Source: an uncultured Lentisphaeria bacterium (GTDB lineage: Bacteria > Verrucomicrobiota > Lentisphaeria > Victivallales > Victivallaceae). Taken from it: 34,492 nt of DNA. Shown here piece by piece: positions 2,079-14,613 of the stretch. The notes under the pieces are model-generated. The model saw only the letters and a program-made list of their open reading frames with translations. It did no database searches and was not told where the DNA came from. A program made the translations under genes and the position numbers. Position 1 is the stretch's first letter; the number at the start of each line of letters is the position of its first letter. The stretch spans positions 1 to 34,492 of the forward strand of contig CASFVA010000018.1 in NCBI GenBank assembly GCA_949298075.1, written 5' to 3'.

Positions 2079-2846
2079 TCAGAAGCTGCGCATAACACCG
2101 GTGGGTTTGTGACTGCGGTCAAGCCGGTCCAGTCCGGCCTGACCCAGAAAGAAATCGATCCATACGTAGTGCATGTGCCGGTCGCCGGTCACTTCCACGC
2201 CGTGGTTGGACCCCAGCGGAATGTGCAGCAGGGTGTTGCCCTTCATCGGCACCCGGATGTCGTCGATCAGCACCTCGACGTCATTTTCGGGAAAGCTGAA
2301 GAAAAACTGGTCAAGCATCGGATGCGGATGCTGCGCCACCTTGTCGTAGCCGTAGGACTCCACCGTGCCCATGCAGAAACCGGGCACAATGCGCTGACGC
2401 ACCAGTTCGCGGCTGATGGTTTTATCGCTCTTGTTGGCGTCGCGATACTGCACCGCCCGGAGATACTCGCAGACGTAGGGGAACTCCCGTTCGGGACTGC
2501 GCCACTGCTCCCGGCCGTCCTCCGGAATCCGCCACCGGATTTCCAGCATCCGGAGCTGGCTGCCGGCGGTGAACTCCGCCGTTTCGCCGCAGCCTGGAAT
2601 AAAAACCCAGCGGCCGTTCCCCGGCTGCCCCACCGCCCCCGACCGGAACTGGAAATCGCCGGAAACCGTCATGAAAATCAAGGCGGTTTCCGGAGTCGCG
2701 GCAAAGGAGCGGCTCTCTCCGGACTTGAAATCGTGCAGAAAGACCTCGGCTCCGGGAATTTCGCCCGGCAGCATCGGCACGACGCCGGAACCGGCGTTGC
2801 TGTCGTCCAATACCACGGTTTTCACATCACAAATCTTCATTTTCAT
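2079..2846 (-). CDS. Cupin-fold protein, function unknown
   Basis: A 255-residue soluble protein. The C-terminal half carries a cupin-like pattern: HPHPMLDQFFFSFPEN (paired histidines, then an acidic or amide residue) followed by a second strand motif PLGSNHGVEV and MHYVWIDFF, which could bind one metal. The N-terminal half looks like a degenerate second barrel (ALIFMTVSGDFQF, WVFIPGCGE), giving a bicupin of the size seen in sugar isomerases such as KduI or IolB; I cannot assign it to either. Its ATG overlaps the TGA of the upstream radical enzyme by 4 bases (2843-2846), so the two are translationally coupled; an alternative ATG lies two codons downstream. The context suggests a role in handling the substrate or product of the sugar pathway encoded upstream, which is inference. 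Confidence 0.75.
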   Translation of the reverse strand: MKMKICDVKTVVLDDSNAGSGVVPMLPGEIPGAEVFLHDFKSGESRSFAATPETALIFMTVSGDFQFRSGAVGQPGNGRWVFIPGCGETAEFTAGSQLRMLEIRWRIPEDGREQWRSPEREFPYVCEYLRAVQYRDANKSDKTISRELVRQRIVPGFCMGTVESYGYDKVAQHPHPMLDQFFFSFPENDVEVLIDDIRVPMKGNTLLHIPLGSNHGVEVTGDRHMHYVWIDFFLGQAGLDRLDRSHKPTGVMRSF

Positions 2847-4538
2847 CCCTTTTTGGTTAAAATCCGGTCTACAACCAGTTGACGGAAATCCTTGGACAGC
2901 ATTGAAAAATAGGCGGTGAACCCCGTAACCCGCACCACCAGGTCCGGATAACGTTCCGGATGCTCGTGCGCCTCCAGCACCTTGTCGGCATCGATGATGT
3001 TGATGTTGAGCAGGGTGTTGCCGGAAGCCAGCAGCGTACGGACCATGCTTACGAGTTTATCCAGCGCCTCCGGCGTGTCGCCCAGCGCCGGATCCAGTTC
3101 CAGCTGCACCGGCGCCGTGTTGCCGTAGCCCGGCTGAATCGCCGCAATCGAATTGGCCATGGCCGTCACCGCCCCATCCGTCCGGAAGCCCGGATGCGGA
3201 TTGGCGCCGTGATTGATCGCCGCGCCGGCCTTGCGGCCGTTGGGAGTGGCGCCGACCTGACGGCCGAAAAATATCGTGTTCGACCAGGAGAACCAGCCGG
3301 GAATGAAATTGAGTCCCGGATAGCGCCGATTCTGCGCCCGCACCAGTTCAGAGTATTCCCGCGACACCCGCACCGCCCAGGCGTCGCCGAGCGAATCTCC
3401 CTGACAGTAGCGCTCGGAGCGCTGGAGCATCTGCCGGACGTATTCGCCTTCGGTTCCGGCGAAGTCCGACTTCAGCCAGCCATCCAGCTCGGCGAATGTC
3501 AGGCGTTTTTCCCGCACGACCCGCTGCTCCACCGCCGCGAAACTGTCCGCCACGGTCGCCAGTGCGGCGCCGTCCATGCACAAATTGAAGTACGTGGCGC
3601 CCCTGGTGACGTCGCAGCCCCGCTCGATCGGTCCGTGGGAGAGCAGATTGAGAATCAGCTCCGGCTCGTTCTGGTCCTGATAGGTCAGATGAAATTTAAT
3701 GCCGTCCGCCGTCGCCTCCACCGCCCGGCGCAGGTGTTCGAGAAAAAGCCGGTGCAGACGCTCCAGGCCGAGTTCGCCCTCCGACATCATCTCCTGCCAT
3801 GCCACTTCAAACACTTTGGCGGCGTTGATCTTGACGATGTCGTTGAGGGTGTATTCCTTGCCGGGAATGCTCATCCAGTGGCAGCCGGAGGAGATCCGGC
3901 TGATCGCCTCGGCGCGCGGGAATCCGCACCGCATGAAGCCGTCAACCAGTGCCCTGTCGCCGGAAAACCGCGGCCAGCCGTTCCGGTTGGTGAAGAGATA
4001 GCCGACCGCCTTGCGCAGAAATTCCGGGTCGGTCCGGTCATGGACCCGCACCGTGAGGTTGCAGGCGATGTTCACCGCGTCCGCCGCCTCCAGAATCAGA
4101 TAGGACAAATGGTTGACGGTGTCGTTGCCGTCGAGATCCGGCCCTCCGAGCTGGTAGTAACGCGAATCGTTGAAAAAGAGGCAGCCGAGATAGAATTTCG
4201 CCTCCTCGTCGGTCAGCCGTCCGGCCCGGATGTCGTTCTCGTAATAGGGCAGCAGCAGCCGGTCGAGCTGACCGCCAGCCGAACCGCGGTTGTAGAGCCG
4301 CGAAAAGAAGCTGAACCAGCACATCCACTGAATCGCTTCGCGCATGGTCTGCGGAACGCCGTCGGCCAGGCGCAAATTGATGTCCGCCATGGCCGCGAGA
4401 TTTTCCCGGAGCACGGGATTGCGTTCGATCAGGGCGAATTCCGCGAGCTGGTGGGAAATCCGCCGCAGAAAGGAGATAATCGCCCGCACCACCGCGATTT
4501 CGCTGTCGTAAAACTCCCGGGTCTCGGGTCCGTTCTGC

Positions 4539-4561
4539 GCCCGGTAATGCTCCAGCCGGGC
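4539..4561 (-). other. Hairpin 12 bases downstream of the in-frame TGA
   Basis: On the minus strand GCCCGG (4561-4556) pairs perfectly with CCGGGC (4544-4539) around an 11-base loop CTGGAGCATTA. The TGA-to-loop distance is 18 bases, within the range reported for bacterial SECIS elements, but the loop does not start with G unless three weak extra pairs form. Chance structure in GC-rich coding DNA is the default reading. Confidence 0.3.
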
Positions 4562-4573
4562 GAGAATGCCGCC

Positions 4574-4576
4574 TCA
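4574..4576 (-). other. In-frame TGA inside the glycyl radical enzyme
   Basis: This codon is read TGA on the minus strand between MKMGLELG and GGILARLEHYRA. The downstream fragment has no good start nearby: the next in-frame initiation codon is a GTG at 4492, 27 codons later, inside a helix expected in the family. TGA is a routine stop elsewhere in the window (cupin, activase, fusion, folC, aroB) and TGG encodes Trp throughout, so a global reassignment is unlikely. Twelve bases after the TGA is a perfect 6-bp hairpin. Confidence 0.9.
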
Positions 4577-5066
4577 GCCCAGCTCCAACCCCATTTTCAT
4601 GTCGGGGTTGAAATGATGGTCGCGCCCGATGCCGCAGATGATGTTGTATTGCGCAAACACCTTTTTGAGGTCGTCATAGGGATGGTCCGGATTCCACGGA
4701 TAGGGATTGGCGGGGTCTCCGGTCATGCCGCGCAGCCGGATCAGAAAAAAGAAGCCGCGCCCGACAAAAGCGTCCAGCGGATCCACGTAAAGCGGATGCT
4801 CCGCCAGCAGCCGGACGTAGTTTTCAGTCCAGCCGGAGTAGCCGTAGAAATGACCATCCGGATGATTGGGAGTGATCTTGAACTTGAAGTACTCGGGCGC
4901 CACCACCCGGCCGTAGTCATCCTCGTTGAGACCGCCCTCCTTTTCGACCTTTTCAGCGGTCTGCGCCAGCTTGCGCTCCCGGAGCAGGCGCAGACGCGCG
5001 GCATAATCCAGCTGCATGGTTTCCGGATACTGGTTGATATACTGAATCATCATCGGACCACCCCTT

Positions 5067-5968
5067 TCAACCGAGCCGCACTTCCCGGCCGGACGCGTTT
5101 TCCGCCGCCGCCCGCAGCTCTGCCAGCGCCGCCGGTTCCAGCGGACGGGCCGACTTCAACGGATTCGGCCGGCCCAGCGCCCGGTATTTGGACGCCCCCA
5201 GCGGATTGAAGTTCAGCAATTCGTAGTAACGCAAATTCCGGAATTCCCGCAGGAATCCCGCAATGCCCGACACGTTCTCCCGGGTCGCGGTCATGCCCGG
5301 AATCAGCGGAGTCCGGGCAATGAGCGGAATCCCCAATTCATCGAGCCGGCGGGCGTTGTCCAGAATCCGCGTATTGCCGGCGCCGGTGAACTGCCGGTGC
5401 GCCGCCGGATCCAGCAGCTTGAGATCGAACATGACCAGATCCAGCCGCCGGAACACCGGCTCCATGTGTTCAAACTCCCAGTCCAGATTGGTTTCCACCG
5501 CCACCGGAACCGCCGCCGCCGCACAGGCTTCGACCAGTTCCAGGGCGAAACCGGCCTGGCAGAACACCTCCCCACCGACAGCGTGACCCCGCCGCCGGAA
5601 TCGCGGTAATAGGCGGCATCCTGAATAATTTCCCGCATTACCTGTCCGACCGACACCTGCCGGGCCGGATTCTTCAGCGCGCCGGGGAAGCAGACTTCCG
5701 CACAGCGGCCGCATCTGACGCATTCACCGGGCTCAAACTCCAGACCGGACACCGCAATCCGGCGCGCTCCGGACACGCAGACCGCTGCACAGTGGCCGCA
5801 ACCGATGCACTTATCCGGAAACACCATCAATTCGCCGCCCGGCGCAAGGCTTTCCGGATTGTGGCACCAGGCGCAGCGCAGATTGCAGCCCTTGAAAAAA
5901 ACCGTGGTCCGGATTCCGGGTCCGTCGTTGAGCGAAAAACGCTGAATGTCGGTAATTACGCCGCTCAT
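5067..5968 (-). pseudogene. Glycyl radical enzyme activating enzyme, frameshifted
   Basis: A radical SAM activase that would install the glycyl radical on the neighbouring enzyme. From the ATG at 5968: FKGCNLRCAWCHNPES gives the CxxxCxxC motif for the SAM-binding 4Fe-4S cluster, then two ferredoxin-like clusters, CIGCGHCAAVC and CVRCGRCAEVC, as in activases of non-PFL glycyl radical enzymes. After Ser131 in GGGVTLS the frame is lost: the expected TLSGGE motif needs one more G in TCGGTGGGGAG near 5570-5576. The second half (GGEVFCQAGFALELVEAC ... VMFDLKLLDPAAHRQF ... LLNFNPLGASKY) continues in the -1 frame to a TGA at 5067. Joined, it would be about 300 residues, a normal family length. Its ATG overlaps the fusion gene's stop (ATGA). 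The deletion hits the SAM-binding GGE motif and removes the rest of the barrel, so the product should be inactive. Confidence 0.88.
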
Positions 5969-7860
5969 GACCGCAGCTCCACCCAGGCGCCCTGCCGCTC
6001 GTAAGCCGATTCATACATAGAGGACAGCACCCGGATGGTGTTCAGTCCCTCCTTTGCCGTCGCCAGCAGCGGAGCGCCGCCGCGCAGCGCTCCGGCAAAA
6101 TTGTCCATGCTGTTGATCCATTCGCTGGTCTCGGGGAAAGGAGCGCGGTCGCTCCAGGCCCGGTTGGCAAACCACCGGGTCACCGGCGCCGTCTCAATGC
6201 CGCCCTCGCGGTGGAGATAGGCACCGGCGGTGCCGTGAGCTTCCATCTGGTAATTCCACGAAGCGTGGGGGTGACAGGTGGTGGCGTAGACGTTGACCAC
6301 CGCACCGTCGGCGTAGCGCCAGACCGCCAGGGCCAGGTCTTCCATTTCAATCTGATGGTTCTGAGTCCAGGCGTCACAGCGGACCGCCTCGGGCATCCCG
6401 AGGGCGAAAATGATTTCATCCAGGTGGTGAATCGTCTGATTGCTCAGCACTCCGCCATCCAGCGCCCGGGTGCCGCGCCAGCCGCCGTCGGCGGCGAAAT
6501 AGCCGTCGGTGCGGTTGATCCGCAGCGCCACCGACAAACTCAGCAGCCGCCCGAAGAAGCCATTGCGCACTGCGGCGCGGAGCGACAGCACCGACGGCCG
6601 CACCCGGCGGCAGAAATCCACCCCGAGCAGCCGGCGATTGCGTTCAGCGGCGGCAATCATGCGTTCGCACTCCGAGGGCAGTATTTCCATCGGTTTGGTG
6701 ACCAGCACATGCTTGCCGGCCTCCAGCGCCCGGCAGGCGAGTTCGGCGTGACGGCCGGTCTCATTCATCACCATCACGGCTTCGACTTCCGGATTTCCAA
6801 GCATTTCATCGTAATCAGCAACGGCGGGCACTCCGCAGGCTTCGGCGGTCCGTTCGCGGCGCTCCGACCGCAGGTCGCAGACCTCAACCAGCCGGACGCC
6901 GGGCGTTTTGGTGATTTCCAGCGCCCGGTTGTGGCCCATGCCCAGCCCGACCACGCCGAAACGCACCGGGTCGTCCTTCCAGGCGCGCTGCACCGCCGCC
7001 GCCGTCAGCCCGACCTCCTGCTGGGCTCCGGCGGCCGCCGCCGGCCACGCCTTGTCAATGACGGCCAAAACCTTGCGGCAGGCCTCCACTCCGGAAAGCG
7101 CAGAATCGTAATTATGGGTCTCAATGCTGACCGGGCCGTCAAAGCCGGCCTCCGCCAGCGCCTGAAACACCTTGTCATAGGGAATCGGATCAAACCGGCC
7201 CTCATCAAACCAGGTGGCCCCGGTCGATTTGACATGGGCGCAAATGGTGCGGGCTGCCAGTCTCCGGAGATAGCCGTCGAGGTCGCGTTCGCGTTCGGCG
7301 CGGTCGGTCATCCAGCTGTTTTTGGGATCCCAGGCGAATCCCCATCCGGGCACGTCGAGCGCGTCGATCATCCGGAAGCACTCCTCCTTGGTACAGCCGC
7401 AGTTTTCAAAGGCGAAAATCAATCCGGACCGCCGGGCTTTTTCAGCAAAGGGCAGAAACAGCTCCATTACCTGCGCCAGTACGTCGGGACGGACGGCGAG
7501 TTCACCCACGCTCTGCTCCTGACCGTGCGGGGGCTGCCAGAAAAAGAAAGTCCGCACCAGTTTGCAGTCAAAAATCTCCGAAGCACGGATCAACCGGTCG
7601 AGCTTGTGCATTTCCTTTTCCAGCCGGGCGGTATCAGGCAGATGCACTTTGGCCAGGGAGCTTTGCAGGCAGCCCACCTTGAAACCATGGGCATCGAGCA
7701 ATTTTTTGGCCTCCAGCATCTCCGCGTCGCCAAGCGCATCGAGCGGACGCTGAAAAATCCGGGCCCGGAGGTCGCAGTGAGTCAGTCCCCATTCCTTGAG
7801 ATACGGTAACGCGGCGGCCAGATCCAGCCCCATTTCATCGGTAAAAATTGATTTGTACAT
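5965..7860 (-). CDS. Fusion of sugar isomerase/epimerase barrel and Gfo/Idh/MocA dehydrogenase
   Basis: A 631-residue two-domain enzyme. Residues about 1-270 are a xylose-isomerase-like TIM barrel (AP endonuclease 2 family) with the expected metal ligands Glu152 (FAFEN), Asp178 (WDPKNSW), His209 (HVKSTG) and Glu247 (IETH). A linker rich in Ala (270-298) leads to a Gfo/Idh/MocA oxidoreductase: Rossmann motif FGVVGLGMGHNRA at 301-313, VLVTKP at 385-390 (the catalytic Lys of the usual EKP motif is Lys389), and the C-terminal substrate sheet with GGVLSNQTIHHLDEI. It probably epimerises or isomerises a sugar or inositol-like compound and oxidises or reduces it with NAD(P). These activities are usually on separate polypeptides. 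The frame has no stop or repeat at the junction, so the fusion looks genuine. It is the first gene of the leftward operon and overlaps the activase by 4 bases. The substrate is not deducible. Confidence 0.88.
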   Translation of the reverse strand: MYKSIFTDEMGLDLAAALPYLKEWGLTHCDLRARIFQRPLDALGDAEMLEAKKLLDAHGFKVGCLQSSLAKVHLPDTARLEKEMHKLDRLIRASEIFDCKLVRTFFFWQPPHGQEQSVGELAVRPDVLAQVMELFLPFAEKARRSGLIFAFENCGCTKEECFRMIDALDVPGWGFAWDPKNSWMTDRAERERDLDGYLRRLAARTICAHVKSTGATWFDEGRFDPIPYDKVFQALAEAGFDGPVSIETHNYDSALSGVEACRKVLAVIDKAWPAAAAGAQQEVGLTAAAVQRAWKDDPVRFGVVGLGMGHNRALEITKTPGVRLVEVCDLRSERRERTAEACGVPAVADYDEMLGNPEVEAVMVMNETGRHAELACRALEAGKHVLVTKPMEILPSECERMIAAAERNRRLLGVDFCRRVRPSVLSLRAAVRNGFFGRLLSLSVALRINRTDGYFAADGGWRGTRALDGGVLSNQTIHHLDEIIFALGMPEAVRCDAWTQNHQIEMEDLALAVWRYADGAVVNVYATTCHPHASWNYQMEAHGTAGAYLHREGGIETAPVTRWFANRAWSDRAPFPETSEWINSMDNFAGALRGGAPLLATAKEGLNTIRVLSSMYESAYERQGAWVELRS

Positions 7861-8053: not shown

Positions 8054-8881
8054 TCAGTTCACCCCGGAATTCCGGCGGTAATCGGAGGGAGTCATGCCGG
8101 TGCGTTCCCGGATCATCCGGCAGAAATAGCTGACGTGAGACAGGCCGCAGCGGAAAGCGACCTCCTTGAGAGGCAGCGTTGTTTCGCGTAGCAGCGACAT
8201 GGCGTGCTGAATGCGCAGCTGTCCGAGATAGTCCCCCGGATAAACTGCGGTTTTGCGATGAAAAATCCGGTTGAGGGTGGTGCGATGGACCCGAAGCTCC
8301 GCGGCAAGCAACTGCACGGAGCACTCCGGATCGGCAAACCGTTCATGTGCCAGTTCAATGAACCTGCGTACCAGATCGCTGTCCGCCGCCGCAATCCGGG
8401 TGCCGCCCAGGCGCGCCAGCAGTTCCAACGCCACGGCAAGCGCATGCCGCTGGGCGTAGGGAGTCCGCTCCCAAAGCTGGATTTCCAGCTCATGAAACAA
8501 CTCGACCGGAGCCTCGCCGGCGTACCAGGGACGGTCGGGATAACCGTAGGCGTCGAACAGCGCCTCGGCTCCTCCGCCGTCAATGGTGAACCAGTAATAG
8601 CGCCACAATTCCCGCCCGGCGGTCAACGAACGGTGAAAGTGCTCTTCGAGCGGCCGGCGGTAAAACACCTCGCCCGGCCCGGTGCTGACGGAACCGCCCG
8701 GACGCACAAATTCACCCCGTCCGTCAGTCGTCCAGAAAATCTGCATGAATCGCTTGTCCTCGCCCGGCACCCGCTCAAACCAGCCGGCCGGAGCCTCGTT
8801 GTAACCAACTGAACGCACATGAAAAGGCAGCGACAGTGATGGTATTTCATTGGGAAAGGGGCGGCTGACAATTTTCCTCAC
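8054..8881 (-). CDS. AraC-family transcriptional regulator
   Basis: A 275-residue regulator. Residues about 20-130 form an AraC-type ligand-binding cupin (RFMQIFWTTDGRGEF, GPGEVFYRRPLEEH). The last 100 residues are the paired helix-turn-helix DNA-binding domain: CSVQLLAAELRVHRTTLNRI (188-207) and LPLKEVAFRCGLSHVSYFCR (236-255), ending in the family's MTPSDYRR. The start is a GTG at 8881 behind GAGGTGG. It lies upstream of and in the same direction as the fusion/radical-enzyme operon, separated from it by a terminator, and is divergent from the NagB-like gene, so it could control both by sensing a sugar. Confidence 0.92.
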   Translation of the reverse strand: MRKIVSRPFPNEIPSLSLPFHVRSVGYNEAPAGWFERVPGEDKRFMQIFWTTDGRGEFVRPGGSVSTGPGEVFYRRPLEEHFHRSLTAGRELWRYYWFTIDGGGAEALFDAYGYPDRPWYAGEAPVELFHELEIQLWERTPYAQRHALAVALELLARLGGTRIAAADSDLVRRFIELAHERFADPECSVQLLAAELRVHRTTLNRIFHRKTAVYPGDYLGQLRIQHAMSLLRETTLPLKEVAFRCGLSHVSYFCRMIRERTGMTPSDYRRNSGVN

Positions 8882-14301: not shown

Positions 14302-14613
14302 TCAGATCAACATTTTCACTCCGTCAATCCGCCGCAATCCGTCGGAGAGCGAGTTGAGGTCGTCGCGGTCGAACACGACCGCCTTGCCCCGCAGCGCAAG
14401 ATATTTACCGCCGCTGGAAGCGCCGCCGTCGGTGAGTTCGGCCGCCGGGTCATGCTCCAGAAGCAGGGCAAGACAGGCCTCGCGGGCCGCGGCGGCCCGG
14501 TCGTGCTCCAGAATGATCCGGAACTCCCAGTCGGTCGGGAATTCAATCGCCGGAGCGGCGGCGGGATCCGGTTCCGAAGCCGGAACGTTTCCGGAAGAGC
14601 GGTGGTCTGTCAT
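14302..14613 (-). CDS. DUF493 / YbeD-like protein
   Basis: A 103-residue protein. After a Pro/Ala-rich N-terminal tail of about 20 residues, FPTDWEFRIILEHD, GGKYLALRGKAVVFDRDDL and LRRIDGVKMLI match the three strands and helices of the YbeD fold (an ACT-like ferredoxin fold). E. coli YbeD is a small protein proposed to be an allosteric or binding module. The ATG overlaps the stop of the cysteine desulfurase gene by 4 bases, so the two are coupled; a regulatory role in sulfur transfer would be an inference. Confidence 0.82.
   Translation of the reverse strand: MTDHRSSGNVPASEPDPAAAPAIEFPTDWEFRIILEHDRAAAAREACLALLLEHDPAAELTDGGASSGGKYLALRGKAVVFDRDDLNSLSDGLRRIDGVKMLI

Follow-up and report, generated by a model that had tools for sequence, protein, structure and literature searches.

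Nonsense codon in a glycyl radical enzyme gene and frameshift in its activase gene suggest recent loss of an anaerobic operon in a Lentisphaeria draft genome

Introduction

The glycyl radical enzymes (GREs) of the PFL2/glycerol-dehydratase type, including PflD, CutC, and the B12-independent glycerol dehydratase, are the closest described systems to the operon analyzed here. They share with it the fold, the radical-Gly motif, the active-site Cys, and a neighboring activase of the TIGR02494 kind, but they carry Cys-x-Glu where this operon encodes Cys-[HSN]-Trp, and the sequence identity is about 17–22%. The Glu of Cys-x-Glu has a role in the GRE dehydratases, and a GRE without its activase cannot receive the glycyl radical. 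Unbroken copies of the operon are found in Lentisphaeria, Clostridia, and Spirochaetia (loci L041–L095), with GREs 46–86% identical in the best segment. In recent bacterial pseudogenes with paired partner loss, coupled neighboring genes are hit, the relatives are unbroken, and there is little decay; the locus described here, as read from a draft assembly, has the same features and nothing unusual by comparison.

The window, i.e., the whole stretch of DNA that was analyzed, corresponds to contig C18 in its entirety (34,492 bases). The draft genome of this gut-type bacterium totals 2.33 Mb, is split into 75 contigs, and is 87% complete. Among named genomes, those closest at this locus are metagenome genomes of Lentisphaeria, Victivallales, and Lentisphaerae, with ruminant gut named for L041 and L043.

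Interrupted GRE gene and frameshifted activase gene

The operon genes and the other features of the window are collected in Table 1. The AraC-type regulator would belong to the operon, judging by its position. Some of the 55 relative loci end inside the operon; a near full-length homologue of the fusion gene stands ahead of the activase gene in 5/55, the activase halves lie near the GRE gene in 52/55, and a homologue of the cupin-like gene lies 3' of it in 20/55 (the L055 homologue has a sub-threshold Cupin_2 match only). The open frame antisense to the entire GRE gene probably results from high G+C and codon bias. The autotransporter-like gene extends past the contig end, probably a point at which repeats broke the assembly.

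Table 1. Features of the window, with coordinates in the window numbering
Feature	Position	Strand	Basis or remark
AraC-type regulator	8054-8881	minus	Pfam HTH_18; upstream of operon
Fusion gene, sugar-isomerase-like TIM barrel and Gfo/Idh/MocA dehydrogenase, unbroken	5965-7860	minus	Pfam
GRE activase gene (radical SAM), frameshifted	5067-5968	minus	TIGR02494 matches in two frames
Activase frameshift	~5561-5576		Within motif reading TLSGGE in nearest relatives
GRE gene with premature TGA	2843-5053 (ATG at 5053)	minus	Pfam and frame analysis
GRE N-terminal fragment, 159 codons and premature stop	4574-5053	minus	Frame and homology
Premature TGA, GRE codon 160	4574-4576	minus	Frame analysis and alignment column of relatives
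GRE C-terminal part, 576 codons and natural stop	2843-4573	minus	PF02901, PF01228
Cys-[HSN]-Trp site	3875-3883	minus	Alignment with relatives
Active-site Cys391	3881-3883	minus	
Gly711 in RVTGFTAYF	2921-2923	minus	
Cupin-like gene, unbroken	2079-2846	minus	Homologues in relatives; directly 3' of GRE gene, start overlaps GRE stop
Antisense open frame, 749 codons	2960-5209	plus	
Autotransporter-like repetitive protein	1-2052	minus	PF16168, AIDA stalk

We detected two stops in the GRE frame, the TGA at codon 160 and the natural stop at codon 737, with no others. The 576 codons past the TGA match PF02901 (PFL-like, E 7.3e-82) and PF01228 (Gly_radical, E 1.3e-14) and contain Cys391 and Gly711, while no Pfam or NCBIfam model matched codons 1–159 at E 0.001. 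The frame read through the TGA aligns with an unbroken relative over residues 1–735 of 736 at 86% identity, and a coding-potential scan, for which other parts of this genome served as the training set, finds both flanks of the TGA coding in the same frame; the GRE gene is therefore a single gene interrupted by a stop, neither two genes nor a chance open frame. According to the original prediction, an in-frame TGA splits a GRE that keeps both catalytic sites, and the frame, Cys391, and the RVTGFTAYF motif are all present as described. The prediction was incomplete in one respect, as it missed the frameshift in the adjoining activase gene. A search of the 87%-complete draft with the GRE query found no second GRE, the sole match being the broken copy.

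The activase gene is spread over two frames, corresponding to TIGR02494 positions 1–135 and 131–291. A dedicated radical-SAM activase is a trait of the GRE superfamily, and here the gene is present by homology and frameshifted. Both halves could be placed in 52 of the 55 relatives, and in all 52 they share a frame uninterrupted by stops; the exceptions are L046 (C half only) and L067 and L080 (no pair found). The genome has 13 activase-family matches, of which the best two are the broken halves, neither over the 174-bit cut-off. No other activase exceeds the cut-off in the 87%-complete draft, where the next match scores 25.7 bits. We also observed a stop inside 2 of the 13 matches, both weak, one of them read as lying at the end of a ferredoxin-like gene.

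To obtain the relatives, six peptide patterns were run against a contig collection, in which they matched 83 stretches; 55 of these are relatives, and one genome per species was compared. Codon 160 is covered by 54 of the 55 (L067 falls short), and the column holds Trp in 49 and Phe in 5, with Cys and a stop in none. The alignment of homologues proposed with the original prediction thus points to mutation and not to selenocysteine. The disabling lesions are absent from the unbroken copies, unlike in the window (stop at codon 160 in 0/54, activase shift in 0/52). Among 60 related genomes searched with the read-through GRE, unbroken orthologues were found in G045 (86% identity) and G033 (80%). 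A close orthologue was present in just one (G033) of the 33 congeners searched, many of them incomplete, suggesting that the operon is accessory and dispensable. When plasmids were searched with the operon DNA, two matches were obtained, both short and distant.

A second damaged copy of the operon was observed in the draft genome of Clostridia bacterium UC5.1-2E3 (L062:8001-11092). Its activase gene is unshifted, its GRE gene has three in-frame stops (codons 230, 256, and 287) in a shifted-looking stretch, and its cupin-like gene has a frame break; these breaks represent either a second case of loss or sequencing error.

Selection on the operon genes

The codon evolution of the GRE gene on the window branch is strongly purifying. 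The codon model of ten sequences estimated omega at 0.057 for the window branch, against 0.043 for the other branches (2dlnL 1.85); values of 0.04 and 0.08 stayed within a drop of 3.84, values of 0.09 and above fell outside it, and 1.0 was rejected (drop 104). Several unbroken GRE branches deviate more (L043, 0.026, 2dlnL 9.0; L045, 0.082, 7.6; L046, 0.0025, 11.9), and L041 and L042 show no such departure. Across the other 53 GRE sequences compared (L062 and L067 excluded), 121 columns are invariant, and the window departs from them at a single one, by a conservative Lys to Arg change. Either the lesions are young, the loss being too recent to leave a trace in GRE omega, or they are not real. 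By arithmetic from the codon fit, neutral evolution since the loss would occupy at most about 4% of the branch, if any; short neutral phases are undetectable because the synonymous sites are far diverged between the compared species.

The activase halves, fitted apart, gave 0.017 on the window branch vs 0.021 (2dlnL 0.01) and 0.146 vs 0.089 (0.62), and the cupin-like gene gave 0.031 vs 0.048 (0.29). For the fusion gene, the window branch had omega 0.089 vs 0.043, which is borderline (2dlnL 3.81, six sequences) and may reflect incipient relaxation in how the operon is used.

Consensus error, read-through, and split enzyme

The main alternative is that the operon works and two sites were miscalled in the consensus or assembly of a metagenome draft, for example, in a thinly covered stretch 3–6 kb from the contig end or by strain mixing. 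The state of the draft (75 contigs at 87% completeness) and the GRE and activase genes, without decay beyond the two sites, are in line with such an error, and the L062 draft, also frame-broken in the operon, could be in error there too. We scanned twenty 20-kb stretches of this genome, 400 kb in total, for broken genes. The scan recovered 279 of 300 planted stops (75 of 300 if no start codon was allowed to follow within 60 nt). For planted one-base deletions, recovery was 97 of 300, or 37 of 300 when a score of at least 20 was required on both sides. The 30 raw hits comprised 27 in-frame stops and 3 shifts, all of which were read as gene boundaries or noise, leaving no broken genes. A possible start codon lies within 39 nt in 26 of the 27 stop hits, which were classed collectively as gene boundaries on that ground, and at the remaining one (L142, at 12347) a GroEL-like gene was read as ending ahead of a TruB-like gene. 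The shift hit in L137 was provisionally read as a gene boundary, and those in L147 and L151 as boundary or noise; none of the three reaches a score of 20 on both sides, whereas the activase shift has a signal of 24 and 60. Further in-frame-stop hits in the window (33337, 25599, and 14304) were also read as gene boundaries, the one at 14304 meeting the 60-nt rule as well.

In addition, none of the 33 ABC-domain matches in the same genome has an internal stop. Together with the reading of the 400 kb as free of broken genes, this suggests that the assembly is not generally error-ridden, although the indel error rate is poorly bounded because just 97 of 300 planted deletions were found. Consensus error would require two disabling errors less than 1 kb apart in two coupled genes, which is improbable given that the sampled genome otherwise reads as clean, within the limited power of the scan for indels. 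We therefore consider consensus error a possible but unlikely explanation.

A more exotic explanation, that UGA is read through as selenocysteine, by a suppressor or in a changed code to give the full-length enzyme, appears very improbable, even though purifying selection acts on the frame past the stop and neither catalytic site is lost. The codon-160 column, Trp or Phe and never Cys in the 54 relatives, speaks against recoding, which the original prediction had left open. The proposed search for selA, selB, selC, and selD supported none of them in the 87%-complete draft. The genome contained no selA match (among 14 controls, 4 matched, one over the cut-off); for selB, none of 6 matches passed the cut-off (2 of 14 controls did); and for selD, the single match scored 30 bits vs 125 (2 of 14 controls over the cut-off), its 290-residue frame looking like ThiL. 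One of 12 selC matches was barely above the gathering score (47.5 vs 47) and was rejected, ARAGORN identifying it as tRNA-Ser with the anticodon TGA. A changed code is disfavored because TGA is the common stop of the window, ending 18 of the 25 listed frames (TAG 5, TAA 2), a list that includes the GRE frame itself among the TGA cases and two pieces of broken genes. No UCA anticodon occurs among the 40 tRNA matches, all placed by ARAGORN, the sole tRNA-Trp having CCA. Read-through would also gain nothing with a frameshifted activase.

Two GRE fragments made separately and acting together, as the family-like sequence kept in both halves might suggest, are hardly credible, since the frame is open at codon 160 in all 54 relatives, where naturally split homologues were sought and none was found, the first possible restart is a GTG at 4492, 81 nt past the stop, the GGGAG about 21 nt ahead of it was read as beyond the usual ribosome-site distance, and the activase is broken as well.

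Active site and enzyme group

Cys391 of the PFL-like barrel is kept in all 56 aligned rows, window included, and all 56 have Cys-[HSN]-Trp at the active site. Five of 30 solved chains were compared: PflD, 8id0, 2f3o, and glycerol dehydratase have Cys-Val-Glu, and CutC has Val-Glu after the Cys too, but its alignment is gapped with an insert there and is less certain. The dehydratase-type Glu two residues after the active-site Cys is absent from the 56 rows, all of which have Trp at this position. Among solved structures, the closest matches are PflD, CutC, glycerol dehydratase, and similar enzymes. The predicted model of an unbroken relative, L042 (mean pLDDT 85.9, pTM 0.88), has the GRE fold, with TM 0.80, normalized by query, against PflD 8yjo.

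No score over the cut-off was obtained with the curated NCBIfam GRE families (PFL2-3, HpsG, CutC, HypD, and others); the best scores of four relatives were 218–251 bits, vs 678 for TIGR01774, and the C-terminal part of the window GRE reached 257 bits. A description of the group was not found in the titles and abstract openings of the papers listed by literature searches; unlabeled GRE clusters exist, so this silence does not mean that the group is undescribed. Judging from its active-site sequence, the Cys-[HSN]-Trp group may catalyze a different reaction.

In 15 of the 20 relatives that have the cupin-like gene, the next gene is phosphomannose-isomerase-like (e.g., L046:3453-4499, L047:10957-12030 of Oligosphaera ethanolica, and L055:11036-12157), and a TRAP transporter lies near the operon in L055; both hint at a sugar or sugar-acid substrate. 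The window and L041, L042, and L043 have no phosphomannose-isomerase-like gene beside the operon. Its absence from the window was considered as further decay and dropped, since these near relatives are also without it.

Discussion

Taken together, the frame analysis, the comparison with relatives, and the genome scan indicate that an accessory anaerobic operon has probably undergone pseudogenisation very recently, with both the GRE, an oxygen-sensitive enzyme, and its activase hit. The GRE gene would have acquired a nonsense codon and the dedicated activase gene a frameshift within its radical-SAM part, at the TLSGGE motif. Once either of them failed, the partner would be free to fail, because the GRE needs its activase for the glycyl radical. 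The knock-out considered in the original prediction is favored by the Trp/Phe column, by the lack of other decay in the GRE gene, and by the second lesion in the partner activase. The lack of further decay fits assembly error equally well. The two lesions lie less than 1 kb apart in mutually dependent genes, and we infer that they are present in the organism and not in the assembly alone.

The strongest indication that the pathway has ceased to operate is the broken activase, and the GRE pathway is probably off. Since neither the fusion gene nor the cupin-like gene is broken, the operon may remain partly in use. We tentatively suggest that the unbroken relatives encode uncharacterized Cys-x-Trp GREs acting on a sugar-derived substrate, as the isomerase-, dehydrogenase-, and cupin-like neighbors hint, in a reaction unassigned to any GRE, and that this genome is losing it.

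The GRE pathway would otherwise be counted as present by an annotator, and the lesion pair illustrates clearly, in a small case, how a radical enzyme can be lost together with its activase, the comparison with relatives removing the selenocysteine reading. The unbroken relatives may merit biochemical study, as their active-site pattern differs from that of the aligned solved dehydratases.
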